A stretch of DNA of 27,479 nt from a virus. Below the pieces are notes generated by a model. The model searched no databases, was not told the origin of the DNA, and saw only the letters and a program-made list of their open reading frames with translations. A program made the position numbers and the translations under genes. Shown one piece after another: positions 3,602 through 26,976 of the stretch; the first letter of the stretch is position 1, and each line of letters starts with the position of its first letter. The stretch lies in the IMG/VR virus record IMGVR_UViG_3300027861_003180, positions 1 through 27,479 of that record; one strand, given 5' to 3'.

Positions 3602-4173
3602 TTGTTTGCTCTGGAGTAGGGTATTCTCACATTGGAAGAACTGGCGGGGAATCTGTAAGGATTGCCTTGATGACGAGTGGCTTGCCATGTTACTACATCG
3701 GTAAGATTTGGGAGCCAGAAGAAGACATAAAAAGCAACAGTAACCGATATCGACCGCACTATCCTCCGAGCATGGTGTCCTCGGTCATATCTCCTGACTT
3801 GAAGCTAGTGACCTGTGTCAGAAACCCATGGGACCGATACGTAAGCTGGTTTCATTGGCATCTAGGAAAACGAAAAGAGCAACCAGAATGGCCTGTCTTT
3901 CTTGAGAAGATCCTTGACGAGACGAACCCTCGTCGAATAACCACCCAGAAGGAATTCATTGAAGGTATCGACTGGTCGTTGATAATGAGATTTGAGAACC
4001 TTCGAAGCGAATGGCTCAAAGTCCAGGAGATGATGGGGCACAAGATTGAGCTCCCTCATTCAAATCAAGGCGAAGGAAGGTCTTCATACCAAGGCTACTA
4101 CTCTCCTCGGCAAAAGAAGGCTGTAGCCAAATCTGAGTCTTACGTTATCGACCGGTTCGGCTACAAATTCTAA
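3598..4173 (+). CDS. Sulfotransferase (Sulfotransfer_2-like, PAPS-dependent)
   Basis: 191 residues. An upstream in-frame ATG at 3544 lies inside the previous gene; the ATG at 3598 overlaps that gene's TGA (ATGA) and places the catalytic motif right at the N-terminus, as usual for the family. 'HIGRTGGES' (11-19) matches the 5'-phosphosulfate loop (HIPKTGGTS type) and 'RNPWDRYVS' (75-83) matches the 3'-phosphate loop RNPxxRxxS. 'RFENL' (131-135) and the C-terminal 'YYSPRQKKAV...DRFGYKF' also fit. Family knowledge: transfer of sulfate from PAPS to a hydroxyl, often on a sugar. Translational coupling to the double glycosyltransferase suggests it sulfates the glycan made by that enzyme. Confidence 0.88.
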   Translation: MIVCSGVGYSHIGRTGGESVRIALMTSGLPCYYIGKIWEPEEDIKSNSNRYRPHYPPSMVSSVISPDLKLVTCVRNPWDRYVSWFHWHLGKRKEQPEWPVFLEKILDETNPRRITTQKEFIEGIDWSLIMRFENLRSEWLKVQEMMGHKIELPHSNQGEGRSSYQGYYSPRQKKAVAKSESYVIDRFGYKF

Positions 4174-4189
4174 GCGAATCCTTCACGGA

Positions 4190-4218
4190 TTGACCCTCAG
4201 AGCCTTCCTTGGTATAGA
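4190..4218 (+). promoter_or_regulatory. Sigma70-like promoter TTGACC-N17-TATAGA
   Basis: The -35 hexamer TTGACC (4190-4195) and -10 hexamer TATAGA (4213-4218) are separated by exactly 17 nt in the 77-nt gap after the sulfotransferase. The predicted start near 4225 leaves a leader of about 26 nt holding the AAGGAA ribosome site of the next gene. The upstream edge overlaps a small inverted repeat (AATCC-TTCAC-GGATT, 4177-4191) that could be a weak terminator or operator. Confidence 0.55.
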
Positions 4219-4250
4219 TCATTGTGTCTCTCCAGCAAGGAAGCTGCCTG

Positions 4251-5744
4251 ATGCCCGAATTTGTACCCACATTCTGGAATACGCTCACACAGCACAATGT
4301 GGGTAGTCGCACGTCTAAGGTGGCTACAGGGCAGGTCGCGTACAAGAAGAAGGGTGCTGCGTGGGGTCACGTAGATTCTTCTGTTCAGGGCGACTTCACT
4401 GTAGAGTCATTCCCCGGATGTGTTCAGTTCCCAGCGAATGCCCAAGACTGGGTGGATCTCTCCTTCGATGGAGAGTATTCCGCCAAGAGCCAGATCGTTA
4501 ACAGCGACTGGCACAACTCCGAGGACGCCCTTGGGTTGCGTTTCCGCTCTGACGCACCCACGAACTCAATAGGCATCATTAACCCTGAAAAGCCTTGGCA
4601 GGTCATTTACTACAACGCATTCGGCTCAGGCTGCAATCTCATCTACGGCATCTGGAGAGGCAAGACGTCTCGCTTTGAGCATGTGATTGAGATTACGGAG
4701 ATGCCTCCCGGGGACAGCGAGTTCCTTGAGTACGATTTCTATGTCGAGTCTGACGATGCCACGACTTTCGTTGGGGCAAACCATGACAGTCGCCCATGGG
4801 CAGGTAATTCTGGGGATGGAGCGACCGTAGAGGGCTTCTCTATTTTCCTTGCTAAGGGTGACGACCCTGCAACGCCTCGCGGGTCAGTGCTGCGGACTCC
4901 TGTCTGCTGGTGGACGAACCTTGACGGAACCCAGACAAAGAAGAACGTCAGGATTGACGTTGAGATTCAGTCTGACTTGGCGACCGTCAAGGCTACCAAA
5001 TACGTAAGACGATCAGATATTCAGGAAGCATTGAGCCAAGGGTCAGTCTATCGCGCTGATGTGACTTTCAATCCTGATGCGAATCCCGAAACGACCTGCT
5101 TTGATGGATTGACTTTGGACGCGAACAATTCCCTGTCCTGGACTGATATCGTTGCCGCGACCGATGCCTCAAACCTCTATGAGTCGGACTCTACCGCTGA
5201 TTTCAGAATCTGGGCCAAAAGTTCAACGGACAAGTGGGACTTTTTGAGTCGTGGTCACTTCCTTTTTGACACAAGCTCGATCGGCTCAGGGCAATCAGTT
5301 GATTCAGCTTCATTAAGCTTGAGCGTTGACAAGAATTATTTCGACGAGTTTGACTTTTATGCAAACATTTACTCAACATCTCCAGCCAGCAACACCACGA
5401 TTGCTACAGGTGACCATGATTCTCTAGGAACAACTCCATTTTCTACGGGGAAAAAAATTACAGACATGTCTACGAACTGGACTACCGAGACGTGGACGTT
5501 TAACACTGACGGAGAAGCTGCTGTTGATATGGAGGGCATTTCTAAGTTTGGACTTGCCGTGAACTATGACCGAGAGGTCGGAACCACTGGTGACCCTACG
5601 TGGGTAGCCAGTGACAGATCAGGGTTCGTAATTAGATTCGCGGAGAAGGGCGGCTCTCACATTCCGGTCCTGACTGTGACTCATTCAGCGGCGTCCAGCG
5701 GCTCTCCTCACTACTACTACCAAAACAACCAGCACGCTAGTTAG
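4251..5744 (+). CDS. Tail/appendage-type protein with C-terminal DNRLRE-like domain
   Basis: 497 residues from the ATG at 4251, chosen over an upstream GTG (4224) because AAGGAA lies 8 nt before it. The N-terminal half is beta-rich and Trp-rich ('SFDGEYSAKSQ', 'NSDWHNSEDALGLRFRSD'), like a lectin-type sandwich. The C-terminal half (about 280-485) has 'FDTSSIGSGQSVDSASLSLSV' style strands followed by 'TWTFN' and a closing 'PVLTVTHS', the pattern of DNRLRE-type beta-sandwich domains that occur in secreted and phage fibre proteins. The C-terminus ends in a Tyr/Asn/Gln/His-rich tail. First gene of the unit driven by the promoter at 4190; probably a tail fibre or baseplate adhesin. Function inferred from position and fold type only. 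Confidence 0.75.
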   Translation: MPEFVPTFWNTLTQHNVGSRTSKVATGQVAYKKKGAAWGHVDSSVQGDFTVESFPGCVQFPANAQDWVDLSFDGEYSAKSQIVNSDWHNSEDALGLRFRSDAPTNSIGIINPEKPWQVIYYNAFGSGCNLIYGIWRGKTSRFEHVIEITEMPPGDSEFLEYDFYVESDDATTFVGANHDSRPWAGNSGDGATVEGFSIFLAKGDDPATPRGSVLRTPVCWWTNLDGTQTKKNVRIDVEIQSDLATVKATKYVRRSDIQEALSQGSVYRADVTFNPDANPETTCFDGLTLDANNSLSWTDIVAATDASNLYESDSTADFRIWAKSSTDKWDFLSRGHFLFDTSSIGSGQSVDSASLSLSVDKNYFDEFDFYANIYSTSPASNTTIATGDHDSLGTTPFSTGKKITDMSTNWTTETWTFNTDGEAAVDMEGISKFGLAVNYDREVGTTGDPTWVASDRSGFVIRFAEKGGSHIPVLTVTHSAASSGSPHYYYQNNQHAS

Positions 5745-12347: not shown

Positions 12348-12914
12348 CTATTGTGGTCCGACTACGCCCTCGACTCCCCACAGGGCAATAGCTCGGCACT
12401 GGCTGAAGTCACTCAAGGTAAACCGTATCGTCTTGACGCCATATGGATTTAGCTGAGCCCGCAGAGTTCTTCCCAGCTCCTTGTCGATCGCTTTTCCATT
12501 GTCCCTCAGATGAGAGAACTCGTGCTGCACGATCACTTCCTTGACGGCTGCCAGGGAAAGGTCGCGTATCGTGTCTTCGTAGTCGTAGCATTCAGTCAGT
12601 AGCTTCACAACGTTGTTGACTTCATAAACCAGAATGCCCCTGACTCCGATGGTCTTCTGATCCTTGGTTGTCAAGTACTGTGGCTGCAGATTGGTCGTCT
12701 GCCTCTTGACTGGAACAATCTCGCATTCAGTAACCAGGGGCCAGTAGACATGAATGCCTGTCCTGAATATTCCATTCCCCGGCTTCATCTCGATAGCGTT
12801 ACTGCCGTTGCGAAACCTCACTCCTGCGTGTGTGGACCTCACGAGTATCAGCTGAGGTATCGTCTTGAGGATCGCCCTGAATACGTCCCCCAGCCAGCTT
12901 AGTGCAGATTCCAT
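12348..12914 (-). CDS. SPFH/Band 7 (stomatin-prohibitin-like) domain protein
   Basis: 188 residues, ATG with GGGAG upstream. An amphipathic/hydrophobic N-terminus ('WLGDVFRAILKTIPQLILV', 7-25) precedes 'HAGVRFRNGS', then 'GNGIFRTGIHVYWPLV' and 'LTTKDQKTIGVRGILVYEV', the order of strands in SPFH domains, ending with the helix rich in 'DLSLAAVKEVIVQHEF'. Cellular SPFH proteins form large membrane-attached oligomeric cages or microdomains and often guard membrane proteases. In a phage this could remodel or protect host membrane. The long coiled-coil tail of host prohibitins is absent, so this is a minimal form. Sits directly downstream of the helicase gene. Confidence 0.8.
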   Translation of the reverse strand: MESALSWLGDVFRAILKTIPQLILVRSTHAGVRFRNGSNAIEMKPGNGIFRTGIHVYWPLVTECEIVPVKRQTTNLQPQYLTTKDQKTIGVRGILVYEVNNVVKLLTECYDYEDTIRDLSLAAVKEVIVQHEFSHLRDNGKAIDKELGRTLRAQLNPYGVKTIRFTLSDFSQCRAIALWGVEGVVGPQ

Positions 12915-12943: not shown

Positions 12944-15787
12944 CTATAGCAGATCCTTCTTCTGCACGTCACGAACTTTCTGACTCCACAGGTATTCATT
13001 GTTCACAGGCGGCGTCATCGGTAAGAATGTGACTGTACCGTTGTTTTCCGCCACAGCGACCCGCTCCTTGCCCTTGCTGTCGGTTGTATTGAACACGGTC
13101 AGATGCCTGTTCTTGTTCTTGTACTGCGACAAAGCCTGCTTGAAGGTCATTGCCTTGTTGCTTCTGCTCTTGCTGGACGGGAAATAGATACTGAACCAGG
13201 CCTTGGTGGCGTCCGAGGTGGTCTTCGCCTTGCGTTTGACGTACGGGCCTTTTACCTGACGAAGAGTGCCGTCATGCTGCAGGATATTGACTCCGCTATT
13301 GCTGCTCTTGTGGCCGCACTCATGACACTCAGGTCCTGATAGTCGCATTGCTGAGCAGCGAGGACAGATGATCGGCTCTTCGCTTTTTCCTTCCTTGCGG
13401 TCCTTCAGGGTCTGATCGGTGAGGGACTTCGACGAGTCGCTCAGATCCCAGATGCGGTCGTCATTTAGGCTGCCATGCACGTGGCAATTTGCCCCGTGAT
13501 CCTGACAGTTATGAACAAGTTTATCGCTTACTGTGAATCTTTGCCTTGGGCCGCAATTGACGATGTCCCACACCTCTTGCTTTTCCCCCAAGCATTCTGT
13601 ATCTCCTTTGCTGACATTCCTCGCCTCAGGAGCTTTCTTATGTGTCCCGCAGTGTATCCTACTTCTGGATATTTTTCTTTCATTTCCTTGAGAGTATTCG
13701 CATGATCTAAGTGAGGATTCGCCTCCCCCTTCGATGCAATCTTCGACCAACTCTCTTCTATGTCTCGGTAGGTTGCTCCGTTTCTTATCAGCTTGTGTAT
13801 GTGCGACTTTGAATACCCCACGTGAGGAGATTCCCTCATGAAAGTATTCAACTTTGAGTTCGGCGACCTCTGGCCTCTTTCCCCTTTCTGGTACCTCTCC
13901 CACGAATTCAAGATGTCTTGACCAGAAAGACCCTTCCTGAACAAAGAGTCTATGGTATGCCTCGAATAGCCAACTGATGGAAAGTCTCTCAGGAATGTTC
14001 GATACCTTGAGGATGGACACTGGCGACTCCTCTTGTTTTTCGCCTGCTGGCTGGCAGTTGCCCATCTGAGGTTCCCAGGCTCGTAGTGTCCCTCGTTGTC
14101 TATCCTGTCTATGCTCAAACTTCGGTCCTCTGGAATCCCTAGATTCTTTGCTATCCAGCAAGCCCCTTCGTACACTGAAGGGAAGCGAAACTCTATTCCT
14201 CTCCCTCCATATAGCTCGTAACCAACGTCCTCGACTCTTGTGCATCTGTGCTTTTGATGCTGGACCCTTCTCCATAGCCATTCTGGGCAATGAGGACCGA
14301 ACTTGTTCATGCAATGGGCACACCCTCTCGATTTCGCTCTCTTCATTGCGTAAAAACGTTTTTGTGAGCTTTTTCCACATTTTTCGCAATGAACCTGCAC
14401 CTTCAGGCTTGATCCGGTCCCCTGTGTGCTTCTGCCTGATATCCTCAGACAGCCTGACTGGAACCCTACCCATTCCGGTTCTAGCAATCCTTCTCTTGTA
14501 ACTCTTCGCCGTTTCGATCGTTTCCCATCCATGACTTGTGTAAACCTCATGCTCAGGCGTTGCTGTTACTCCATCCCACTCAATGACTTTCTGCACACCC
14601 TTGCAGATTGCACCGTCATGGGAAACAAACTCTACTCCGTCCCACACTTTGTCTGCCAGTGAGACATCTTGAATATTTACGAGACCTCTATCAGTTAAAA
14701 CCTTAGAGCCTCTCGCGATGCAAGTTACGTAGTCTAGGCTGTCGTGTGCCCTTAACACTCGCCCACCGGCCTGTAGGAACATTTTCAGGCTGCCGTAGGA
14801 TGTAGCAAAGATCAGATGGCCGACTTGTGGCAAGTCGATACCCTCGGTTAACAGAAACCTTGAGCTGATGATTTTAATCTCGCCGTTCCGTACCTCGTCG
14901 AATAGCTTCTCGCGGTTCTTGATCTTCATGGAGTCTTCCATGACCGGTCGGCCGTCCGCGTCCTTCTCTCCGTAATAGATATGCTTGGCGTCGATGTGAG
15001 CGGACGGGATCCCGGCGTTCAAAAACATGTCTGTGATCGTAATGCTTCCACGCACGGAAGGAGCGAACACGATAGTCGGACGCTGCATCGGATTCAGGCG
15101 ACGGTAGTGCGGTAGGATATGCCCGAATACGATCTCGGGCTTCATATTCTCGTTTACTGTCTTCTCTGAGTACTCTCCCTCAGCGTTTCGCTTCATGCTC
15201 ATGTAGTCCGGCATGGTCGGACAGTACTCTTTACAGATCAGGTGAGCCCCACACTCGCGGAGTTCTGAGTTAATGCCAGCCAACACAAGCGTGTCATAGA
15301 TATGAGAAATATCGAGCGGAGTCGCGGTCAAGCCACAGAAAACCACATTTGGATTGCTTTCCTCATACTTCTTGATCAATGCAAGAGAACGAGCAGATCG
15401 TTCGTTGTGAGCCTCATCAAAGAAGACGATGTCTGCGTTGTGTATATTCCAACTCGGGTTCTTCCCTAGCGTTCTCACGCCCTCTGTGGGAGTCATGGAT
15501 ATCTGAAGAGGTTTGTCGAAATCAGTCTTGTAACCAGACGCACGCATCCCGGGGTCAAGACCTAGCCCCTCTAGTACCTTGCGAGACTGCTCGGCCAGAC
15601 TCTTGCGATTTACAGAGAAAACCGTCTTCAGGTTTCTGCGATTAGCTTCCTTGATTATCTCAGATGAAAGCCTTGTCTTGCCGGCCCCGCAAGCACCCAC
15701 AGTGCAGATTCTCTTTTTGCCTGCATCCACATGAGCCCAGAACTGGTCAAACGCTTTTTGTTGGTGAGGCCACATAGGAAAGGTCAT
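12944..15787 (-). CDS. SF2 DEAH-type helicase interrupted by an intein
   Basis: 947-residue precursor; ATG at 15787 overlaps the upstream endonuclease stop by 4 nt. Helicase motifs: Walker A 'GACGAGKT' (31-38), DEAH box 'FFDEAHNE' (122-129), 'GLTATP' (152-157), motif V region 'LLTEGIDLP' (312-320) and motif VI 'QAGGRVLRA' (339-347). The intein runs C356-N760, inserted nine residues after motif VI. The C-extein restarts with Cys761 and holds a zinc ribbon (C808, C811, C821, C824) and a basic C-terminal domain. Removing the intein leaves a 542-residue helicase. Role: ATP-driven duplex or D-loop unwinding in phage replication or recombination; the ERF, ParB-like and exonuclease genes in the same operon support this. 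Splicing is required for an intact helicase because the insertion separates the motor from the C-terminal domain. Confidence 0.88.
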   Translation of the reverse strand: MTFPMWPHQQKAFDQFWAHVDAGKKRICTVGACGAGKTRLSSEIIKEANRRNLKTVFSVNRKSLAEQSRKVLEGLGLDPGMRASGYKTDFDKPLQISMTPTEGVRTLGKNPSWNIHNADIVFFDEAHNERSARSLALIKKYEESNPNVVFCGLTATPLDISHIYDTLVLAGINSELRECGAHLICKEYCPTMPDYMSMKRNAEGEYSEKTVNENMKPEIVFGHILPHYRRLNPMQRPTIVFAPSVRGSITITDMFLNAGIPSAHIDAKHIYYGEKDADGRPVMEDSMKIKNREKLFDEVRNGEIKIISSRFLLTEGIDLPQVGHLIFATSYGSLKMFLQAGGRVLRAHDSLDYVTCIARGSKVLTDRGLVNIQDVSLADKVWDGVEFVSHDGAICKGVQKVIEWDGVTATPEHEVYTSHGWETIETAKSYKRRIARTGMGRVPVRLSEDIRQKHTGDRIKPEGAGSLRKMWKKLTKTFLRNEESEIERVCPLHEQVRSSLPRMAMEKGPASKAQMHKSRGRWLRAIWRERNRVSLPFSVRRGLLDSKESRDSRGPKFEHRQDRQRGTLRAWEPQMGNCQPAGEKQEESPVSILKVSNIPERLSISWLFEAYHRLFVQEGSFWSRHLEFVGEVPERGKRPEVAELKVEYFHEGISSRGVFKVAHTQADKKRSNLPRHRRELVEDCIEGGGESSLRSCEYSQGNERKISRSRIHCGTHKKAPEARNVSKGDTECLGEKQEVWDIVNCGPRQRFTVSDKLVHNCQDHGANCHVHGSLNDDRIWDLSDSSKSLTDQTLKDRKEGKSEEPIICPRCSAMRLSGPECHECGHKSSNSGVNILQHDGTLRQVKGPYVKRKAKTTSDATKAWFSIYFPSSKSRSNKAMTFKQALSQYKNKNRHLTVFNTTDSKGKERVAVAENNGTVTFLPMTPPVNNEYLWSQKVRDVQKKDLL
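13508..14722 (-). mobile_element. Intein in helicase, 405 codons, with out-of-frame endonuclease insert
   Basis: Block A begins at C356 ('CIARGSKVLTDRGLVNIQDV'), followed by 'DKVWDGVEFVSHDG'; block B is 'DGVTATPEHEVYTSHGW' with the TxxH motif; block F is 'VWDIVNCGPRQRFTV' and block G ends 'KLVHN' with Cys as the +1 extein residue. These are all class 1 intein splicing elements. The Hint halves (about 75 N-terminal and 25-35 C-terminal residues) are separated by about 300 residues of Arg/Ser/Glu-rich, low-quality sequence with no LAGLIDADG or HNH motif. That linker is the shadow translation of the endonuclease gene at 13528-14550, which lies in the +1 frame. The intein frame has no stop anywhere in it. 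Confidence 0.9.
13528..14550 (-). CDS. Homing endonuclease nested out of frame inside the intein
   Basis: 340 residues in the +1 frame relative to the intein, same strand. A zinc knuckle (C55, C58, C77, C80) precedes a nuclease core (about 85-175) containing 'YELYGGRGIEF', 'LSIDRIDNEGHYEPGNLRWA' and 'QQAKNKRS'. This is the pattern of phage HNH/EDxHD-type endonucleases (as I recall, the I-Bth0305I-like family). The C-terminal part has three DNA-binding-type repeats (about 183-217, 234-268 and 286-321) of the form 'P.VGYS..HI..L.R.G....I..SW'. The first ATG (14550) is inside intein block B and the stop (13530-13528) falls within block G, so both ends overlap splicing sequence. The true start is not settled: no good ribosome site is seen before 14550 or 14532. 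Translation could be from an internal start or by frameshift. Confidence 0.8.
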   Translation of the reverse strand: MRFTQVMDGKRSKRRRVTREGLLEPEWVGFQSGCLRISGRSTQGTGSSLKVQVHCEKCGKSSQKRFYAMKRAKSRGCAHCMNKFGPHCPEWLWRRVQHQKHRCTRVEDVGYELYGGRGIEFRFPSVYEGACWIAKNLGIPEDRSLSIDRIDNEGHYEPGNLRWATASQQAKNKRSRQCPSSRYRTFLRDFPSVGYSRHTIDSLFRKGLSGQDILNSWERYQKGERGQRSPNSKLNTFMRESPHVGYSKSHIHKLIRNGATYRDIEESWSKIASKGEANPHLDHANTLKEMKEKYPEVGYTAGHIRKLLRRGMSAKEIQNAWGKSKRCGTSSIAAQGKDSQ

Positions 15788-16710
15788 ACTTCATTCCTCT
15801 TGCTGATTCTCTTCTCGCCTACAGGCGTCTCGATTGCGTCCTCTACGCTCCACCCACTTCTGATCCTAACACCGAGCGTGGCCCCTTTCATTCCAATTGC
15901 CTCAGCCCATTCAGTAATGCATTTCCTCTCCCCCTTGTAATCCAACAAGACGTTCGTGGATACGTTCCTTGCCTGCTCAGTAGCTGTCGCCCATCGGCAG
16001 TTTCCCGGCTCATAGTTTCTGTTTCCGTCAATGCGATCGATCGAATGCTTCGGAGTTGGCTTCCTTCCCATGTCCTCAATGAAGTTTTTGTACTCAGCCC
16101 ATCGGTCGCATACGGTGATGCCCTTTTCTCCGTAAATCCGATAACTCTTGTTTGTTGGATCTCCACATCTCCTTCTCATGTTTGACCAAGCCTCATGCTC
16201 AGGCTCTATCTCTACGCCTCTTCTCTTTCTTTTTTCTCCGCCGCATCCACAACTTCTCACGTCTTGGGAGCCAAGCCTTGTTGAGCTTACGACCCTCATG
16301 TTTCCACAGTCACAAATACACTTCCAGAAGTTTCTCTCGGTTTTCCTTCCATCAAACGCTAGAACGAACAATCTGCCGAACCTCTTCCCCAGTAGGCTTT
16401 TGAAGTTTGCGTTAGTGGGCGTCTTGACGGTGTCGTACTTCCCTGCAGGCTTTTCCTTAGCCTTTCTTTTGACTCCTTTAGTTCCAATCCTGTTAACCCT
16501 AGCGCAGCCACAACTGTTTGTCGTCTTCCTGTTCAGCTCCTTTTGGCTTCTGACACACATTTCCCCACAGTCGCAAACGCACATCCAGTAGCTATGTCCT
16601 TTCCTATTTCCAGCAAAAGCAAGAACAAATAGCAGGTCAGTTCTCTTGCCAATAGGACTCTTGAAACGCGGACCACTCGGGAACTTTAAGTTGTCATACA
16701 ACGCGGTCAT
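15784..16710 (-). CDS. Second HNH/EDxHD-type homing endonuclease with duplicated zinc modules
   Basis: 308 residues from the ATG at 16710, chosen for GGAG 9 nt upstream; the longer frame begins with a GTG inside a hairpin loop. Two tandem modules: residues about 17-72 and 104-160 share 'GKR...LFVLAF.G' and the Cys set 'CVCDCG...SCGC' (C44, C46, C48, C67, C69) against 'CICDCG...SCGC' (C131, C133, C135, C154, C156). The core (about 171-250) has 'EAWSNMRRRC', 'RIYGEKGITVCDRW' and 'HSIDRIDGNRNYEPGNCRWA'. The end has an 'ITEWAEAIGMKGATLGVRIRSG' helix-turn-helix-like unit. Same family as the endonuclease nested in the neighbouring intein. Its TGA overlaps the helicase ATG, so it sits exactly at the helicase gene boundary without disrupting it. 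Probably a free-standing mobile gene that cuts the helicase locus of related phages. Confidence 0.85.
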   Translation of the reverse strand: MTALYDNLKFPSGPRFKSPIGKRTDLLFVLAFAGNRKGHSYWMCVCDCGEMCVRSQKELNRKTTNSCGCARVNRIGTKGVKRKAKEKPAGKYDTVKTPTNANFKSLLGKRFGRLFVLAFDGRKTERNFWKCICDCGNMRVVSSTRLGSQDVRSCGCGGEKRKRRGVEIEPEHEAWSNMRRRCGDPTNKSYRIYGEKGITVCDRWAEYKNFIEDMGRKPTPKHSIDRIDGNRNYEPGNCRWATATEQARNVSTNVLLDYKGERKCITEWAEAIGMKGATLGVRIRSGWSVEDAIETPVGEKRISKRNEV

Positions 16711-16739
16711 AAACTCTCTCTCCATTCTCTCGCAAACGA

Positions 16740-16774
16740 AAGGCAGGGCCTTGCATTGCACAAGACCCTGCCTT
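16740..16774 (-). terminator. Long hairpin upstream of the endonuclease-helicase genes
   Basis: AAGGCAGGG (16740-16748) pairs with CCCTGCCTT (16766-16774), with an inner CTTG/CAAG stem, a C-A mismatch and a 7-nt loop. On the minus strand it is followed by TCGTTTG, a modest T-rich tail, so it may be a weak terminator or attenuator between the Tat-like genes and the endonuclease gene. The rest of the 152-nt gap (16711-16862) holds no convincing gene. Confidence 0.5.
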
Positions 16775-17397: not shown

Positions 17398-17566
17398 CAT
17401 TGACTCCCGTGAAATACATAACTGCATGGAAAGCCGTGAAGCCCGAACAGACAACAGCGGCGACCACATTGATGTTGTATGTCTCACCTATGAAGCACGC
17501 CAGTAGATTAAAGAGCCCTAAGAGCCCATCAAGTATTGCAAGCTGCCCATGAGTCTTACGATTCAT
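17387..17566 (-). CDS. Small two-TM membrane protein (59 aa)
   Basis: ATG at 17566 has GGAAAGG at about 9 nt. Two hydrophobic segments: about residues 8-29 ('LAILDGLLGLFNLLACFIG') and 33-54 ('INVVAAVVCSGFTAFHAVMYF'), with a short polar turn and a tiny acidic C-terminus. Small two-TM phage proteins are sometimes holins, but no endolysin is adjacent, so membrane anchoring or a complex with the Tat-like neighbours is equally possible. Overlaps both neighbours (11 nt each). Confidence 0.65.
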   Translation of the reverse strand: MNRKTHGQLAILDGLLGLFNLLACFIGETYNINVVAAVVCSGFTAFHAVMYFTGVNDES

Positions 17567-17981
17567 CACTCATCGCCTTTCCGATTGGATCACCAACCTT
17601 CTTTGACAATCGCACGTGGATTATTCCATTGAAGCTGATTGGGTCATTCAGTACATCACACTCAAGCTGCAGCTTTAACTCTGCCATCGCCAGCTCAGAC
17701 TTAGATTGATGCAGACTGATGATTTCTCGAGTGAACTGCTGTTCGCCGTATTTCTCGATCGCTTCCAGGAGCAGATTAGACGAACCCCAGTACGTTTTCC
17801 AGTCAGATTCCACGTGATCGATTCGGTGTCTCTTTTTGCCTTTCAGTGGCTTCCGGCGAATCCGTCTTTTGAACTGTTTCTTGCCTATGTAGAACGCACC
17901 ACTTTCGTGAGTGATTCGGTAAACGAACCCGAAATGGTCCATCGGGTCGTCCGGCACGTTTACCCATCGACTTTCTGACAC
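17556..17981 (-). CDS. GIY-YIG family endonuclease (homing type)
   Basis: 141 residues if the GTG at 17981 is used; this GTG overlaps the ParB-like gene's TAG (TAGTG). An ATG at 17942 is the alternative. 'GFVYRITHESGAFYIGKKQF' (18-37) is a GIY-YIG core with the YIGK signature, followed by a basic stretch ('KRRIRRKPLKGKKRH') and 'ESDWKTYWGSS', then 'EKYGEQQFTREII'. This resembles free-standing phage GIY-YIG endonucleases of the Seg type. The catalytic Glu probably lies in the helical part (ELAMAELKLQLE). It sits as an extra cistron between replication genes, consistent with a mobile gene. Confidence 0.8.
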   Translation of the reverse strand: MSESRWVNVPDDPMDHFGFVYRITHESGAFYIGKKQFKRRIRRKPLKGKKRHRIDHVESDWKTYWGSSNLLLEAIEKYGEQQFTREIISLHQSKSELAMAELKLQLECDVLNDPISFNGIIHVRLSKKVGDPIGKAMSDES

Positions 17982-18730
17982 TAGCTCACTTCTTTCGCAC
18001 ACTGGTCTTCCCACCGCTTAATGTCTTCTCCAATGGCAGAGATAGCACCAGGCACGTCAAGGTCCTGCACACCAGGGAACGCCTGCTTTGCCTTCATGAC
18101 GGCACGTGACAACTTCCCCAGCAGCCCTTGTACTGACTCAAACACCATCAAGGGACTCGGCTCCGTGGCATTCAAATCCTTCACTGCCTGTATTGCCCCG
18201 GACGCGGTTGCCTCTTCGTCACCAAGTATCTGATCCCTGAACCCTGGCGACTCGTCCTCTCCTTCGTCGATCGTCTCTGCAAGCTTCGCGGCATGGCCAG
18301 CCTGGCTTGGAGTTACGTCGTTGGCTTCTGCGTAGTCCTTGATTGTGCCGCCCATCTCGCGAGCATCAAGGACTTCCTGGCCCATTTCGTACTGTTCGCT
18401 GAGTGTCGGGTTATTTCTCCTGCCCTTCTGGTGGTTGCGAATCCACTCGACAACTTCCTCTTCCGTGGAGCCGCTCAGTTCCGACACGTCCTTGAAGGAC
18501 GGAGCCTCTACGTCGACATTGCCCTCATGCTCCTGCCAGATCGCGTACCGATGATGACCATCCACGATCACTTCTTCGCCGCCCTCTGACAGGTGATACA
18601 GGATCGGTGACAGGAATCCCCCTTCCTGCAGGATGTTCATCTCAAGCTGAGACGACTCCTTTTCAGTAAGCGGACTCAGCGTGTCCCGGTAGACGGGATT
18701 GATCATCATTCTATCTGCAAGCTTAGGCAC
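17981..18730 (-). CDS. ParB/sulfiredoxin-fold nuclease-like DNA-binding protein
   Basis: 249 residues from a GTG at 18730, chosen because AAGGAG lies 7 nt upstream; the longer frame begins with TTG inside the ERF gene. Residues about 14-85 form a ParB N-terminal domain: 'LSPLTEKESSQLEMNI', 'SPILYHL' and the signature 'DGHHRYA' (57-63), the counterpart of GERRxxA. It is followed by 'TLSEQYEMGQEVLDAREMGG' and an HTH-like 'TIKDYAEANDVTPSQAGHA', then an acidic linker and a helical C-terminus. Members act in segregation, regulation or as CTP-dependent or nuclease DNA-binding factors. Position next to ERF suggests a role in replication/recombination rather than plasmid-style partition, since no ParA is present in the window. 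Confidence 0.82.
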   Translation of the reverse strand: MPKLADRMMINPVYRDTLSPLTEKESSQLEMNILQEGGFLSPILYHLSEGGEEVIVDGHHRYAIWQEHEGNVDVEAPSFKDVSELSGSTEEEVVEWIRNHQKGRRNNPTLSEQYEMGQEVLDAREMGGTIKDYAEANDVTPSQAGHAAKLAETIDEGEDESPGFRDQILGDEEATASGAIQAVKDLNATEPSPLMVFESVQGLLGKLSRAVMKAKQAFPGVQDLDVPGAISAIGEDIKRWEDQCAKEVS

Positions 18731-20521: not shown

Positions 20522-21265
20522 ATGGACTGGTCTCCCCTGAAAAGAGTAAATGGCTTCTGTCGACAGATGGCTCACATGCTGGCGATCGCCTCAGAGGACG
20601 CCTATTGCAAGGAAGGACTGGACGCCGTTAAACGAAGATGGGGTTGTGAGGTTGACCTGATCGACCATAAGGGCTCGCAGGCGATCGTGATTCACGGGCC
20701 AGCCCTGATTATTGCTTTCCGGGGAACAGAACCGGACGAAATCAAAGACTGGCTTTCAGATCTGAATGTCGGCAAAACCGAGATCGAAGGCGGATTCTAC
20801 CTTCACGATGGATTCCTGAAAGCTTATCGACTGCTTGCTGCTGACGTGACCAAAGTCTGTAAAGCCAATGAAGACAAGGACATATTCCTGACGGGGCACT
20901 CCCTGGGTGGAGCTTTGGCGAATGTCGCCATGTGGGAGCTTGAGACTCACCGAGGGGTCAGAATCAAGCGATCCTACACCTTCGGAGCCCCAAGAGTCTT
21001 TGGACGAAAGATGTCTCGCCGAGTCCGGAATGAGCTGAACGGCCGGCAGTTCAGAGTCGTCAACAGAAATGACATTGTTCCGAGAGTGCCTTCCTTGTTA
21101 CGTTTTCAGCATACCGGAGCGGTGGCGTACATTAATCGCCGTGACAGAATACAAATCAATCCCAGCTTTTTCTATGTGGCCATCGACAGAATCCTGGGGT
21201 ATCGGGCGAATATAATCCGGTCACATTTCATGGAATACTACACGCAGGGAACCGGCAGTGAATAA
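20522..21265 (+). CDS. Class 3 lipase (alpha/beta hydrolase)
   Basis: 247 residues, ATG preceded by AAGGACGAG. 'GHSLGG' (125-130) is the nucleophile elbow with S127; 'AFRGTE' (65-70) is the oxyanion-hole strand; D184 in 'NRNDIVPRVP' and H235 in 'RSHFMEYY' complete the Lipase_3 triad. 'YTFGAPRVF' (152-160) is also characteristic. No signal peptide is visible, so secretion would need lysis or a holin, or it acts on the inner leaflet. Family reaction: hydrolysis of acylglycerol or phospholipid esters. It begins a plus-strand unit with two secreted proteases, which suggests envelope degradation at the end of infection. Confidence 0.9.
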   Translation: MDWSPLKRVNGFCRQMAHMLAIASEDAYCKEGLDAVKRRWGCEVDLIDHKGSQAIVIHGPALIIAFRGTEPDEIKDWLSDLNVGKTEIEGGFYLHDGFLKAYRLLAADVTKVCKANEDKDIFLTGHSLGGALANVAMWELETHRGVRIKRSYTFGAPRVFGRKMSRRVRNELNGRQFRVVNRNDIVPRVPSLLRFQHTGAVAYINRRDRIQINPSFFYVAIDRILGYRANIIRSHFMEYYTQGTGSE

Positions 21266-22868
21266 AATCATCTTCGCAATGGCAGTATCGTTCTGCACAT
21301 TGTCACCCGCCTCAGATGCGGTCGTCTCGATCGGTAGCGGAAAGGGAGTCATTATCTCTCCTTCTGGTCTGGTGATGACAGCAGAGCATGTCTCGAACAG
21401 CCGCCAGATTGAAGTCACGCTTCATGATGGCACGAAGCGGCAGGCTGTCCTGAAGCGAATGCCGCAGAAGAACTTCAGGGACGAGGTGCAGGTCTACCAC
21501 ATCCTTGGCGGCGGCGAGTTTCCTTACATCCTGATCTCTAATCGACAACCTAAGGTTGGAGACATTGTTACATCCCCTGGAGTCTCCGGTGAGGTGGTCA
21601 ATGAGAACGTCAGCTTTTCTCTCGGGCCTGGTTTTCAAACTGGCCTGCAGAATGGATTGGTGACAAATTGGCCGTCTCCGGAGCGGGATTCCGGTTCCCC
21701 TTTGATCGACAGTGACGGAAAGCTGATTGGCATCCTGTCGATGAGCGGGGAATGGCCTCTGACTTACTGGATCGGCCTCGGAGAAATCCATACGGCTATT
21801 AAGGCGTCTCAGCCATATCGCGGACAGCGAAGACTGGTGATGTTCTCGACTCCCGGAAACAAGGACTGCGAGCTGTACCAGAAAGAGATCACAGCAACCG
21901 GAAGCCCTGTGACCGTAATCAGCACGGACGATCCTGCCTACGAGCAGTGGAAGGCATCCTACGAGTATTACACAAAGCAAAAGCTGACGCAGTTTCCAAC
22001 CTTCTGGGTAGAAGCCACAAACAAGACTCGATCCGAGTCTTACCGTCCTGGTCTTCTTGGAACGATCTTCGGATGGTTCAAGTCGATCATCGATGCTTTC
22101 GTGTCGCTCTTCTTTGGAGCACCCGCTCCTCGAGCTGACTTGCCGCCTATGCCAGACGGGCTGGATCCCAGCGAGCTGACGATCATCGCACTCGCTAAGA
22201 AACAGGACGTGAACGCAGTCAAGGCAAAGGCAATTGTCCTCGGGCTTGACAAGATCGCTGGCCCCTTGCAGCGTAAGATCAACGAGGAGATGGAAGGCAA
22301 GGCTCGAGTTGAGATCGTCCCAGAACGGACTCGGCCTGAGATGTTTAAGGCAATCACGGAAGCTGCTGGATTGCCGGCCGACCCGGGCGTGATTCTGGTA
22401 CTGGTTCGGTCTCGTAATCTGGGTCTAAAAGGGTTGATCGCAAAGAAGGTCGAGAAAGCAATCGAAGGCAAAGTTCCAGACACAGTGCCGATCGAGATCA
22501 TCTTTGAGCGAGTTCACGCTGACTCGTTCCGGACAATCGAAGCGGCTCTGTCAACACCTGAGGCGTATCGCCGTGAGTCAACTCCGGTAATCACGGACGT
22601 GAAGACCGCAATCAAAGACAAGGCACAGGACTTGATTCTGAAGCGAATGGAAGCCTCAGAGAACAAGCTGATCAACCTGATCGGCAAGAAGGCATCAGAG
22701 CCTAAGAAGGAAGGCGAAGAAGGCCCGTTCAGCAACGGACTAATTGCCTCTCTGTTGGGCGTACTGATGGCGGGGTACACCGGCCGAGAAGGATACAAGT
22801 CTCGGAAGCTGCACCTTCTCAAGAAAGCAGCTGAGACTGCACACGGATTTGTGAAGGGCCAGGAATGA
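21258..22868 (+). CDS. Signal-anchored trypsin-like protease with Trx-like and repeated C-terminal domains
   Basis: 536 residues from a GTG (21258) overlapping the lipase stop, with CAGGGA 7 nt upstream. 1-21 is a signal peptide (MNKIIFAMAVSFCTLSPASDA). A trypsin-like domain follows (about 22-185): H44 in 'TAEHV', D75 as candidate Asp, and S145 in 'RDSGSPLI', with 'GKLIGILS' after it. Residues about 190-262 look like a thioredoxin fold ('RRLVMFSTPGNKDC', cis-Pro in 'QFPTFWV') with a single Cys204 instead of CxxC. 266-287 is hydrophobic/amphipathic. Residues 306-434 hold two copies of a module ending 'VEIVPERTRPEMFKAI' and 'IEIIFERVHADSFRTI'. A predicted TM is at 494-508. The nearby metalloprotease shares the last three elements. 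Likely faces the periplasm. Confidence 0.85.
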   Translation: MNKIIFAMAVSFCTLSPASDAVVSIGSGKGVIISPSGLVMTAEHVSNSRQIEVTLHDGTKRQAVLKRMPQKNFRDEVQVYHILGGGEFPYILISNRQPKVGDIVTSPGVSGEVVNENVSFSLGPGFQTGLQNGLVTNWPSPERDSGSPLIDSDGKLIGILSMSGEWPLTYWIGLGEIHTAIKASQPYRGQRRLVMFSTPGNKDCELYQKEITATGSPVTVISTDDPAYEQWKASYEYYTKQKLTQFPTFWVEATNKTRSESYRPGLLGTIFGWFKSIIDAFVSLFFGAPAPRADLPPMPDGLDPSELTIIALAKKQDVNAVKAKAIVLGLDKIAGPLQRKINEEMEGKARVEIVPERTRPEMFKAITEAAGLPADPGVILVLVRSRNLGLKGLIAKKVEKAIEGKVPDTVPIEIIFERVHADSFRTIEAALSTPEAYRRESTPVITDVKTAIKDKAQDLILKRMEASENKLINLIGKKASEPKKEGEEGPFSNGLIASLLGVLMAGYTGREGYKSRKLHLLKKAAETAHGFVKGQE

Positions 22869-23098
22869 GTATCGCAATTGCCTTAATTCAAGTCGCAGCC
22901 CCTAGCCTACTGACAGGTGTCGGTGGAGCAATCCTTGCTCACTTACAGAATCCTCTTGCTGCTGGAGTGCTCAAACTTGGAAAGAGACTGCTCAAGGGTG
23001 ACCACTTGAGTGAAGAAGACAAACAATTCATTCACGAATACAACAAGACTCATGGAGTAGGATCGCCGGGATATCACCCATCAGATACTTACCGATGA
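22865..23098 (+). CDS. Small hydrophobic protein between the two proteases (77 aa)
   Basis: Starts by an ATGA overlap with the serine protease gene, preceded by AGGG. Residues 3-27 ('IALIQVAAPSLLTGVGGAILAHL') form one hydrophobic segment; then 'KLGKRLLKGDHLS' basic and a hydrophilic tail. One TM plus charged tail is compatible with a pinholin or a membrane adaptor; no named family recognised. Its place inside the lipase-protease set suggests a membrane role in the same process. Confidence 0.65.
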   Translation: MSIAIALIQVAAPSLLTGVGGAILAHLQNPLAAGVLKLGKRLLKGDHLSEEDKQFIHEYNKTHGVGSPGYHPSDTYR

Positions 23099-23120
23099 GC
23101 AGTCCAGGGAAGGACACCAC

Positions 23121-24797
23121 ATGCTTACGAGAATCATTGTAATTCTGTCGCTGTGCGCGACGACCTGCCAGGCCCAGAACTTCGTGGGTGACCGAGACCT
23201 TGTGGAAGCGGCTGAGAAGGCACGTATCCGTTCCGCTGAATTCTGGACTGGCAAGAAACTCAAAGACTGGGATGAGCCTTGCGAGATTTCCTGGTCCCGA
23301 GGAGAAAATAATCTGGACTCCGGGAAGACGAACTTCTCATATCGACCAGGGGGCATAACCTCAATGGTTATGATTCTGTCTGGTCCTCGCGATCTCGCCA
23401 TTGAGAACACTCTCCCACATGAAGTTGACCACGCGGTTCGACACTCGATCATCGGTAAGCCTATCCCAAGGTGGCTGGACGAAGGGTGTGCTGCTCAGTT
23501 CGAGTCCCGTGAAGCCAAGAAGCGAATTCGGTCAGCCTTGGTTCACGGCAACCTTAAGTCTTCTGTCTGGGATATGTTCGGCAGTAAAGAATACCCGCAG
23601 GATGCGGACCAGCTGACAGCTCTTTACTCAGGTTCCGCGTCTCTTGTTGAGTGGATGCTGGAGATGTCAAGCCCCCGCGATCTGATGCGAGCACAGGAAG
23701 CTGGCATGGACTCTCACCAGAAATGGAAGATGTACGTTGGTGAAGACGCATCGGTTTCCCGGCAGCGATACGAGAAATGGTTTGCTGCCAAGTACGGCGG
23801 CGGCAACCCGGAGCCAGCCCTGCCGTCAAGAGAATACATCGACGTGTGGGTCGCTGGTGATTTCCATTGCCCACCATGTGAAGACTTCAAGAAGTACGCT
23901 CGATCGACCACCAAGGCTCGCGGGTTCGATTATCACTTGCATCCCCTGTCCTTCAAGGATTGCCAGGAGCGGGGCATCTCCGTGCCAATGTTTACTTCGA
24001 ACAATATCGTATTCGAAGGGCCGATTAACACATGGGAAGACGTCGACAACTGGGCTCGCAATCAACTAAAGGTTAACAGGGAGCCTGTCACTAAGGTTCC
24101 GCATCCGCCTAAGGAAAGTGAGCCACTTCCGGTAAGGGAGCCACAACTGGATCCGCCACCAATCCCGAACAGTGTCGCACCTGGAATCACTGCTACTCCG
24201 GAAGCGATTCGTGTGATTGGTGAGATGCTCGATCCGAGCTCTAGCCCTAAGCCAGAACCAGTCATTAAGTGGGAAGGGCTAACGATCCTGATCGCGATCT
24301 CTGACGAGTTCCCAGCCCTGGCGATGGCAGGGGAAGGCCCAGGTCGCCGAGCTATCGAACGCCTGTCAAGCGGCAAGTCGAAGATTGAAGTCATCTCTGA
24401 GCGAGCCCGTCCCGCGATGTTCGCTGACTATGAGAAAGCTCTTGGGCTTAGTATCTCCAAGTTTCACGTATCGATCCTAGTTCCTTCCGGTTCCGGAATA
24501 GAGTACGTCGAGCCTGCAGTACTGAAGATCGAGCACATCCTGAATGGCAGCGTCTCGAACTTCGCGGAAGAGGACGCCGGTGACATCCCTGTGGAGATTA
24601 TCTCCGAGGTCGTGTCTCCAGCGGACTACATCGCAGTGAGTTCAATCTCTGACGATCCGAAGCCTGGAGAAGAGTTTGGCTTGAAGATCAAATGGGACAT
24701 GACAAGGAACACCCTGTACGGTATCGCAGCCACGGTCGCAGCCTATGGGTATCTCCTTTTCTATCGAAGAAAGAGGAAGAGTGAATCCGTATCTTAA
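23121..24797 (+). CDS. Signal-anchored zinc metallopeptidase with CPPC thioredoxin-like and repeated C-terminal domains
   Basis: 558 residues, ATG with GGGAAGGA upstream. 1-18 is a signal peptide ending 'CQA'. A gluzincin-type site follows: 'LPHEVDHAV' (98-106; H100, E101, H104) and 'WLDEGCA' (118-124, E121 as third ligand), the arrangement of Peptidase-MA-like enzymes. A thioredoxin-like domain (about 237-316) has 'DFHCPPCEDF' with C250 and C253. A Pro-rich linker (320-382) leads to two module copies ending 'IEVISERARPAMFADY' (422-437) and 'VEIISEVVSPADYIAV' (491-506). A C-terminal TM lies at about 531-547, with a basic tail. The last codons overlap the terminase start. Same domain order as the serine protease gene upstream. 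Confidence 0.87.
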   Translation: MLTRIIVILSLCATTCQAQNFVGDRDLVEAAEKARIRSAEFWTGKKLKDWDEPCEISWSRGENNLDSGKTNFSYRPGGITSMVMILSGPRDLAIENTLPHEVDHAVRHSIIGKPIPRWLDEGCAAQFESREAKKRIRSALVHGNLKSSVWDMFGSKEYPQDADQLTALYSGSASLVEWMLEMSSPRDLMRAQEAGMDSHQKWKMYVGEDASVSRQRYEKWFAAKYGGGNPEPALPSREYIDVWVAGDFHCPPCEDFKKYARSTTKARGFDYHLHPLSFKDCQERGISVPMFTSNNIVFEGPINTWEDVDNWARNQLKVNREPVTKVPHPPKESEPLPVREPQLDPPPIPNSVAPGITATPEAIRVIGEMLDPSSSPKPEPVIKWEGLTILIAISDEFPALAMAGEGPGRRAIERLSSGKSKIEVISERARPAMFADYEKALGLSISKFHVSILVPSGSGIEYVEPAVLKIEHILNGSVSNFAEEDAGDIPVEIISEVVSPADYIAVSSISDDPKPGEEFGLKIKWDMTRNTLYGIAATVAAYGYLLFYRRKRKSESVS

Positions 24798-26976
24798 TGC
24801 CGATCAACTTCACATTCTTGCTAACTCGTTCGGCAAAGCAGGTCATCACTCTGCCTCGAAGCTGATCACCCGCAAGGGGATCGCTGCGTCTGAGGTCGAG
24901 CAACTCTTTGTTGAGGGATACCTGTCCAAGAAGGGCCGTCGATACTTCGCTAATCGCCGCACGGAAACTGCTCTTGAGGAACACGGGTTCGACCTGTCGG
25001 AAATGATAGTCGAGGATGAACCTGAAGAGACGCCCGTCCAGAAGATCTCCAAGGAGAAGAAGCTGGAGAAGCACATCCTCTCTGAGCGTGCTGAGAGTAC
25101 GATGCGGAGCCGTGCAGAGATACAGGCAATCTTACTCAAGCGAGCGAAGGACAAGGCATTAGCAGGCGACCCATGGGACTACGTGCGACGACAGTGGCCT
25201 GAGTTAGTAATCCGCGACGAGCTGGACCTGCGATACTTCGCCAAGCACTGCACTCGAAAGCATGCCCTTGATCTCAGACTGGACGACGCACAGGTTGAGT
25301 TGATTGGCCACGCATTCGACCCCAGCATTCGCGAGATAGCAATTAAGGGGTCTACATCCCCTGGCAAAGGTTTTGCTACGGCCCTGTTGTTGAATATTAG
25401 ATATTCACTCTACGAGAACGACCGCATTACTCTTTTGTCTCAATCCACGAAGCATGCCAAGGATGTTATGTTTGCTGAGATGGTTACGTGGCGTAAGAAG
25501 ATGCGATACCCAGACGGATGCGAGACTTTAGCCGCTGGAGTGAAGGATCCCAACGAGCCAAAGCACTTCGTGGCAATCGCCAATCCAGAAACAGGAGAAG
25601 GTCTATCTGGTGGCCACGGAGCCCATGTAACATTTTGCTTCGACGAATCGAGCTCTACCCCACCTGAGCTGCCCATTAATGCACGCAAACAAGCCAACCT
25701 GATTATCTACATCTCGAACCCTCGAGTCCTTTCAGGGTTCTTCTATGACCTGTACCCGAAGGTAGAGCCTGACAAGAATCAAGTAATCGTTGACAAAGGT
25801 ATCAAACGGGCGTGCCTGACGTTCGGCGGACATGGAGCCTTGAACGTCCGAGCCAAGCGACTCTCGATTCCTTACGGCCCGCCAGGTGGACTTGAAGGCG
25901 AGACGATCGATGGCGAGAAGTTCTTCATTGCTGAAGGCGACAAAGTTCCTGACCATCTGATCCCACACACTCGGCCGTTGATTCCTGGCCAGATGGACTA
26001 CGCCAAGTATAAGACCATCATGTTGTCTCCCAACGAGACGGAGCGTGCATGGTCTGGCGAAGGTAAGTTTCCACCTGAAGATGCTGATTTCCAGATCATT
26101 GTTCCGACATGGCTTAAAGAACCTTGCGCAATGTGGAATTTGCACAAGGACAAGATCGAAGTCACAGCGCTCGGCCTTGACCTTGCGGCATCTGTAGAGG
26201 GCGACGAGACGGTCCTGGTTGCCGGCGGACCCCTGGGCATTAAGAAGATATTCCGTACCCGCAAAGCGAACTCCATGCAGACTCTTTCGTGGATCGTCCA
26301 GTGTTGCAAAGAGATGGGCTTCGATCTTTATAGTGGGGAAGTCCCGATTGCAGTCGATGCGATCGGTGCTGGCGGTAACGTGATCGCAGAGATCATGGAG
26401 AAGAACGGAGCGATCGTTTATGCCATGAAAGGAAACCGCTCAGCGTCTAACCCCAGCCTGTATGTCAATGTGCGGGCTGAGCTGTATGGCGTGCTCGGCG
26501 TTCGACTGGATCCAGACTCAGCATACGCCGACCTGTTCATGCTGCCGGATGATGACAAGCTTCGTGAAGAATTAGTCGCTCATGAAAAGCACTACACTTC
26601 TGACATGACCAGGTTTCAAGCCACGCCGAAGATCAAGAGCCGAGGAGCCTTGGCGAACGTCCAGCCGATTAAAGAGAAGATCGGCCGCTCGCCAGATACC
26701 GCTGACGCCGTTGTGCTGTGCCACTGGGCGATCATGGACACTGAGGGCGACGGACATGTCGTAGATCAGTTCAACCCCGCAGAAGCTCTTGAGGCGTACC
26801 GTAAGACGGACACGGGCTCAGTACTGGAAGGGCGAGGCGACGGAAATGTCTCGGAAGTCTCACAGGAAGACTTCGACAGCTCCTGGGGATCGAACCCGAC
26901 CACAATCGAGGACGAAATGGAAGGGTTCAGACGGGCGATGGCCGAGGTTCGGCGATCTGGTGGCGGATTCAGGTAA
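24781..26976 (+). CDS. terL: Terminase large subunit
   Basis: 731 residues if the GTG at 24781 is used (AGAGG upstream, overlapping the protease gene by 17 nt); an ATG at 24745 lacks a ribosome site. The first 120 residues form a helix-rich, HTH-like domain. ATPase: 'KGSTSPGKGFATALL' (from residue 189) with an unusual Gly after the Walker A Lys, and Walker B 'FCFDE' (285-289). Nuclease (RNase H-like): D467 in 'LGLDLAAS', D526 in 'IAVDAIGAGG' and the Asp cluster near 639-642 in 'SPDTADAV'. Role: cuts concatemeric DNA and drives packaging into the prohead. The C-terminal 60 residues are acidic and Gly-rich. It marks the start of the packaging and head genes expected to the right. Confidence 0.9.
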   Translation: MNPYLNADQLHILANSFGKAGHHSASKLITRKGIAASEVEQLFVEGYLSKKGRRYFANRRTETALEEHGFDLSEMIVEDEPEETPVQKISKEKKLEKHILSERAESTMRSRAEIQAILLKRAKDKALAGDPWDYVRRQWPELVIRDELDLRYFAKHCTRKHALDLRLDDAQVELIGHAFDPSIREIAIKGSTSPGKGFATALLLNIRYSLYENDRITLLSQSTKHAKDVMFAEMVTWRKKMRYPDGCETLAAGVKDPNEPKHFVAIANPETGEGLSGGHGAHVTFCFDESSSTPPELPINARKQANLIIYISNPRVLSGFFYDLYPKVEPDKNQVIVDKGIKRACLTFGGHGALNVRAKRLSIPYGPPGGLEGETIDGEKFFIAEGDKVPDHLIPHTRPLIPGQMDYAKYKTIMLSPNETERAWSGEGKFPPEDADFQIIVPTWLKEPCAMWNLHKDKIEVTALGLDLAASVEGDETVLVAGGPLGIKKIFRTRKANSMQTLSWIVQCCKEMGFDLYSGEVPIAVDAIGAGGNVIAEIMEKNGAIVYAMKGNRSASNPSLYVNVRAELYGVLGVRLDPDSAYADLFMLPDDDKLREELVAHEKHYTSDMTRFQATPKIKSRGALANVQPIKEKIGRSPDTADAVVLCHWAIMDTEGDGHVVDQFNPAEALEAYRKTDTGSVLEGRGDGNVSEVSQEDFDSSWGSNPTTIEDEMEGFRRAMAEVRRSGGGFR

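Follow-up and report, generated by a model that had tools for sequence, protein, structure and literature searches.

How two adjacent genes for predicted exported proteases of different catalytic classes came to lie side by side in a phage, and what the phage may use them for, are the questions raised by a stretch of viral DNA of 27,479 nt (IMG/VR record IMGVR_UViG_3300027861_003180, positions 1 to 27,479), here called the window. The two genes, P1 and P2, belong to a cassette in the region 20,522-24,797. A sequence-only reading of the window had described both products as built from the same domains in the same order, and had explained the pair by a duplication followed by a swap of the catalytic domain.

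Layout of the cassette and its two proteases

The open reading frames of P1 and P2 were found exactly where they had been claimed, and the common order of leader, protease, thioredoxin-like domain, module and C-terminal helix, as judged from the sequences, was borne out (Table 1). Signal peptides and membrane helices of both proteins were called from hydropathy; the N-terminus of P1 is hydrophobic and is predicted to be a leader. The genes run head to tail in the order lipase, P1, small membrane protein, P2, terminase. The 3' end of the lipase gene and the start of P1 share 8 bases, the gene of the 77-aa protein is ATGA-coupled to the end of P1, and P2 lies directly 5' of the terminase gene and overlaps it. 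The longest terminase reading frame opens at 24745; the probable GTG start, 17 bases inside the end of P2, was chosen by alignment with the terminase starts of two related contigs, L003 and L004, together with an upstream purine-rich GAGGA. The phage origin proposed for the pair was also borne out. Promoter and terminator scans gave no signal above shuffled sequences. The 77-aa protein has one membrane segment by hydropathy and no family match in Pfam or PHROGs; it is a possible holin-like component, and a single small membrane protein per cassette is no evidence of a holin.

Table 1. Positions of the cassette features in the window
Feature	Position	Strand	Description or basis
Class 3 lipase	20522..21265	+	alpha/beta hydrolase, GHSLGG; Pfam Lipase_3 E 7e-26; first gene of the cassette
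P1, 536 aa	21258..22868	+	signal peptide, trypsin-like protease, degenerate thioredoxin-like domain, module, C-terminal membrane helix
P1 trypsin-like domain, H44/D75/S145	21324..21752	+	Pfam Trypsin_2; kept in L004
P1 thioredoxin-like segment 189-255, Cys204, FPTFW cis-Pro motif	21822..22022	+	secondary-structure order, low-confidence model
P1 amphipathic helix 267-286, conserved	22056..22115	+	mean hydrophobicity 0.64, moment 0.46; similar in L004
P1 module 305-433	22170..22556	+	hhalign E 1.9e-9 to P2 module
P1 C-terminal hydrophobic segment, predicted membrane anchor	22737..22784	+	hydropathy; helix 496-534, low-confidence model
77-aa protein, N-terminal membrane segment	22865..23098	+	hydropathy; L004 homologue 4194-4418
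P2, 558 aa	23121..24797	+	signal peptide, gluzincin, CPPC thioredoxin-like domain, Pro-rich linker, module, C-terminal membrane helix
P2 gluzincin domain, HEVDH 100-104 + E121	23178..23801	+	23 relatives; fold Z 13.7
P2 thioredoxin-like domain 237-316, CPPC 250-253, cis-Pro 289	23829..24068	+	AlphaFold model, profile match
P2 module 385-512	24273..24656	+	hhalign; AlphaFold model; P1 search of the window's record
P2 C-terminal membrane helix, then RRKRK	24693..24764	+	model helix 525-555
Terminase large subunit	24781..26976	+	phrog_2 E 1.1e-16

The trypsin-like triad claimed for P1 was confirmed by a match to Pfam Trypsin_2 (PF13365; E 1.7e-8; 35.8 bits, cut-off 27.6), with H44, D75 and S145 also found in L004. 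The catalytic domain resembles those of Trypsin_2/DegS-like periplasmic serine proteases, and the only match of P1 in the phage collection was a DegS (31% identity). DegS is also membrane-anchored; no PDZ domain was seen in P1, which has the thioredoxin-like segment and the module instead, and the anchor of P1 is C-terminal. Since the AlphaFold model of P1 is poor (mean pLDDT 42, about 51-64 in the thioredoxin-like segment), the putative thioredoxin fold of this segment rests on its similarity to the WCGPC domain that is fused to a metalloprotease in L039, a locus of another, phage-like contig (hhalign E 1.1e-5). In the same low-confidence model residues 189-255 follow the strand and helix order of the thioredoxin-like residues 239-316 of P2, and Pfam Thioredoxin_2 gave E 0.26 only. 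The domain is degenerate, as had been noticed before: the first motif cysteine is gone (NKDC, or DKDC in L004), which leaves the single Cys204 and no two-cysteine, redox-active CxxC site. The amphipathic helix that follows, residues 267-286, is similar in L004, whatever role it may have.

The zinc site of P2 had likewise been read correctly, and HEVDH (100-104) and the glutamate of WLDEG (E121) are invariant in 23 aligned relatives. The AlphaFold model, built from 23 sequences, has a mean pLDDT of 74 (protease mostly >80, thioredoxin-like domain ~80, module ~50-83). The nearest solved folds to the protease were the M9 collagenase unit and the M30 lugdulysin (Z 13.6-13.7, rmsd 3.7-4.0 over ~203 residues), at about 11-12% identity, and the unit matched in these enzymes is without thioredoxin domain or anchor. 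By its motif, glutamate ligand and modelled fold P2 is predicted to be an active gluzincin metallopeptidase (clan MA); the likeness of the predicted fold to M9 does not show collagenase activity. P2 and its L004 counterpart had no Pfam match and stayed below the cut-off of PF13485 (Peptidase_MA_2), which a relative in contig L136 passed (35.0 bits, cut-off 32.4).

The CPPC thioredoxin-like domain claimed for P2 was recovered in the model, with a beta-alpha-beta-alpha-beta-alpha order, the CPPC motif and cis-proline P289 at pLDDT ~80. A profile of P2 and its relatives, compared with solved thioredoxins and protein disulfide isomerases, gave a best E of 1.6e-7 over the thioredoxin-like segment. 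Model and profile agree on a thioredoxin fold with CxxC and cis-proline, for which redox activity is predicted. The motif is CPPC in the window and CDPC in L004, and none of the aligned P2-like fusions has lost CxxC. P2 shares CPPC and cis-proline with thioredoxin and protein disulfide isomerase; unlike in those proteins, the domain lies downstream of a protease and is predicted to be exported, and the copy in P1 is without the nucleophilic cysteine.

One module behind two different N-terminal halves

The C-terminal modules of the two proteins proved to be homologous, as had been suspected. Residues 305-433 of P1 aligned with residues 385-512 of P2 at hhalign E 1.9e-9 when the L004 copies were included, and at 4.4e-7 singly, where ten unrelated window proteins gave 0.08-0.83. 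The Smith-Waterman z against shuffles was 13.8, and P1, used as query against the record of the window itself, picked up the P2 module independently (E 2.4e-6). The module comprises ~130 residues in a two-part beta-alpha arrangement. Its description as a twice-repeated unit held clearly for P1 (p 0.0005) and more weakly for the window P2 (0.015), and could not be upheld by sequence for the L004 P2 (0.28); a (beta-alpha-beta-alpha)x2 order was seen in the module of both models, that of P1 being of low confidence. The suggested search for the module elsewhere succeeded in both genes of L004, with no other convincing match among 21 records. Foldseek returned rows to 4-OT-type or designed proteins and to multi-thioredoxin proteins, none of them significant. 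Two matches in 392 Planctomycetota genomes (E ~0.002) were rejected as chance, because they lie antisense to a conserved sugar-isomerase-like gene. Among the sequences searched the module was found only in the window phage and in L004.

The proposed history of the pair, duplication and then a catalytic swap, agrees with the module and anchor common to both proteins and fails at the thioredoxin domains, which have no detectable sequence relationship to each other (hhalign 0.36; Smith-Waterman p 0.64). The nearest relative of the P1 segment is the metalloprotease-fused domain of L039, followed by those of L136 and L129. Because the thioredoxin domains of P1 and P2 are not detectably related, a single duplication with one swap was rejected, and since that of P1 is closest to the L039 domain, piecewise domain shuffling fits better. 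All that is demonstrably common to P1 and P2 is the C-terminal module plus anchor. One module and anchor would thus have been joined to two different N-terminal halves, and a single duplication with one swap is not the simplest account.

Relatives in phages and planctomycete genomes

No relatives came up when viral contigs were scanned with P1 or P2 as single proteins, and profile scans gave L004 only; a search with the terminase led to the relatives L003-L009. L004 carries the entire cassette, in the order glycosyltransferase (-), lipase, P1, small membrane protein, P2, terminase, with the catalytic residues kept. Its P1 is 46% identical to that of the window (substitutions per codon position 0.45/0.34/0.69) and its P2 45% (0.45/0.34/0.62), and this codon-position pattern suggests purifying selection on both genes. 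At least one protease gene was present in all six contigs of the terminase clade that were examined. At the terminase-proximal place L005 has a trypsin-like protease with a collagen stalk; in L006 and L007 the cassette is absent beside the terminase, trypsin-like collagen proteins occur elsewhere, and a lipase is found elsewhere in the record of L006. The terminase-proximal region of L003 (234-3037) encodes a protein with a signal peptide whose tail, by eye, may be thioredoxin-like, a protease of papain type (Pfam E 8.7e-4, slightly short of the cut-off) and a protein with a WCAPC thioredoxin domain; here the theme recurs with yet another, third class of protease.

The pattern HEVxH-11 residues-PRWxDEG was scanned in genome contigs and viral contigs. 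Among the genome matches listed nearly all were labelled Planctomycetota and a few just 'bacterium'; the viral contigs gave 15. On this motif rests the link to the host, which is most likely a planctomycete by sequence, so the generic Gram-negative test host suggested earlier would miss the point. No lysogen with this terminase was found in a terminase scan of the genome contigs. The chromosomal Peptidase_MA_2-like metalloproteases (PF13485) of Planctomycetota have the motif spacing and the N-terminal domain of P2. They differ in that the shared module is absent and that 117 of 119 loci among the matches listed carry no thioredoxin domain, as judged by CxxC inspection and a profile built from the phage domains; the two fusions are L039 and L069. 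The L039 contig looks phage-like. The fusion is present in 8 of the 12 assessable viral metalloprotease proteins, the window's included (Fisher p ~1e-8 against the genomic loci, with relatedness ignored).

In the lineage of L134 and L139 gluzincin and trypsin domains stand in one chain, followed by collagen. As the combinations vary across the phage relatives, protease class, thioredoxin domain and stalk have been exchanged freely. There is apparently a wider, undescribed set of such proteins in planctomycete phages, with a gluzincin and/or trypsin domain, often a thioredoxin domain, and then a coiled coil, collagen or a membrane anchor. The impression that the pair is new is right in that no described counterpart was found in the sources searched, and has to be corrected in that so many viral metalloproteases are thioredoxin-fused and the pair is not isolated. 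The parts are known, namely Trypsin_2, a gluzincin with M9/M30-like fold, thioredoxin and Lipase_3, as are exported proteases and lysis cassettes. The whole combination had no counterpart in PHROGs, Pfam, PADLOC or the literature searched, and the phage protease-thioredoxin-anchor design is new as far as these sources show. Even apart from its function, the family illustrates clearly how catalytic domains can be shuffled on a scaffold made for export, redox exchange and anchoring.

A possible role at the host envelope

The reading that we tentatively favour, at somewhat less than even chance, is that the cassette serves to lyse hosts whose protein envelope is stabilised by disulfides. One point against it is that planctomycetes are now accepted to have peptidoglycan, and it would be odd for a phage to lyse them with no hydrolase against it. 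For P. maris, an envelope that resists SDS was reported to consist of protein with much proline and cysteine, held together by disulfides (PMC3035269), and a protein sacculus with disulfide bonds has been reported for planctomycetes (PMC2754498). P1 and P2 would be late-expressed envelope-degrading proteins, making up a lysis cassette with the lipase and the small membrane protein. Both would be exported by the Sec route and tethered by the C-terminal helix to the inner membrane with their enzymes facing the periplasm, the module between tether and enzymes being a docking or stalk element common to the two. The CPPC domain of P2 would reduce or reshuffle disulfides in Cys-rich envelope proteins, while the degenerate domain of P1 would serve for binding, not catalysis. 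The loosened envelope proteins would then be cut by the two protease domains, trypsin-like and gluzincin, and the lipase, once released, would attack membrane lipids. Direct observation covers the architecture, the module homology, the conserved catalytic residues, purifying selection, the gene order that overlaps the terminase, the recurrence in phages of planctomycete type and the lipase neighbours; secretion, topology, redox activity, docking and lysis we infer.

Several neighbourhoods bear on this lysis reading. Co-expression with a late gene is likely, because the gene order is kept in L004 and the genes overlap or nearly abut in both phages; the terminase lies directly downstream in both, as in a lysis cassette. 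A lipase gene is found directly upstream of the protease gene in five phages, i.e., the window and L004 (before P1), L131, L136 and L138. By eye, and with no Pfam match, L133 has another alpha/beta hydrolase near its protease gene, and NlpC/YiiX-like proteins occur in L069, L130 and L143 and near L134. In L129 the protease gene has head genes on one side and that of the major tail protein on the other; in L131 it adjoins portal and major head genes, and in L137 it follows a head/maturation-protease gene. Against lysis count some non-late neighbours, ParB-like or methyltransferase genes, in L136 and L138. A periplasmic thioredoxin domain also needs an electron source, which speaks against lysis as well.

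In classical cassettes, lambda S-R-Rz is upstream of the terminase, and the cassette described here likewise lies just before it. The difference is that no peptidoglycan hydrolase was found here, and proteases and a thioredoxin-like domain are present instead: eight peptidoglycan-hydrolase Pfam families gave zero matches in 16 fragmentary records (~620 kb), with control genomes positive. In L142 one protein has an endolysin PHROG among its matches, next to further large multidomain families, which again counts against the lysis reading. A precedent for host-tailored lysis is given by the lipolytic enzymes of mycobacteriophages acting on the mycolic-acid outer membrane, and the lipase of the cassette may be likened to this envelope-adapted enzyme of the LysA/LysB system (PMC6116114). 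That planctomycete phages lyse their hosts without any peptidoglycan hydrolase, by means of exported, tethered fusions of protease and thiol-disulfide exchange domains that, with a lipase, dismantle a disulfide-crosslinked protein envelope, we consider doubtful; if true, the principle was not described before in the sources searched. No description of how Planctomycetota viruses leave their host was found in the literature searched. Should the proposed action hold, the protein-rich and unusual envelope of planctomycetes would be linked to a dedicated viral machinery for dismantling it, and ready-made enzymes for opening and studying planctomycete cells would be at hand.

Instead of lysis, the tethered proteases may serve superinfection exclusion, by destroying or altering host proteins at the surface or in the periplasm that competing phages need, or, as a variant, strip receptors so that progeny is protected from rebinding. 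The predicted export and anchoring, and a stalk and catalytic class highly variable between related phages, are as in an arms-race factor, and the glycosyltransferase and sulfotransferase genes of the window suggest other surface-active functions. The tight coupling to the terminase and the late-region location fit a late role better, however, and the lipase partner is left unexplained; we hold exclusion or receptor stripping, taken together, to be rather unlikely. Virion-associated enzymes digesting the envelope at entry, as tail or particle components, are improbable: one would not expect tail proteins to have an N-terminal signal peptide or a C-terminal membrane helix, and P1 and P2 of the window have no collagen stalk, although the collagen-like stalks in L005, L006, L007, L131 and L134 resemble tail-fibre stalks and some copies lie among structural genes. 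About equally improbable is a DegP/Dsb-like quality-control pair that processes or refolds periplasmic envelope proteins. Protease plus thioredoxin-like domain resembles such a combination, and the conserved CxxC of the P2-like fusions would suit it, but tailed-phage virions assemble in the cytoplasm, so there would be no phage substrate in the periplasm, and the neighbouring lipase would stay unexplained. Least probable is that the genes are idle cargo, host protease genes taken up by the phage without a function of their own in it, since synteny with L004 and purifying selection argue for a maintained function and the thioredoxin fusion is absent from nearly all genomic loci among the matches listed, even though planctomycete genomes contain many homologues of the metalloprotease domain. 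A role in anti-phage defence found no support, as PADLOC gave no match for the window proteins and weak protease-domain matches for the L004 P1 (LmuA, E 2.2e-5).

Other genes of the window and its relatives were noted in passing. A helicase at 12944-15787 (-) has 947 aa, compared to 540-552 aa in its L005 and L006 relatives, and carries an insert starting with CIARGSKVLTD and ending with VHNC, typical of an intein (Hint). Near it lie a possible HNH/AP2-like homing-endonuclease-type protein (15784-16761, -), recognized by eye, and a SegE GIY-YIG endonuclease (17556-18014, -; Pfam E 6.2e-29). A sulfotransferase (3544-4173, +; Pfam E 8.1e-8) and a glycosyltransferase (1373-3601, +; E 4.2e-8) suggest by sequence that the phage may modify a glycan. 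An SPFH/Band 7 protein (12348-12914, -; Pfam E 2.3e-23) is unexpected in a phage. Gly/Ala-rich membrane proteins, possibly a recurrent second component, are encoded near the protease genes of L129 (6315-6836), L133 (7666-8625) and L134 (3564-4175), with less clear cases in L005 (9270-9809) and L006 (17934-18320); each has an acidic tail with a terminal motif resembling (D)(E/K)(N/D)T.Y.L.L. Finally, L133 (7224-7850), L136 (5566-6066) and L138 (755-1321) encode, near the protease-thioredoxin gene, proteins that are related to one another and resemble thermonucleases, each with a VxDGDTxxV motif and a membrane segment at the N-terminus.
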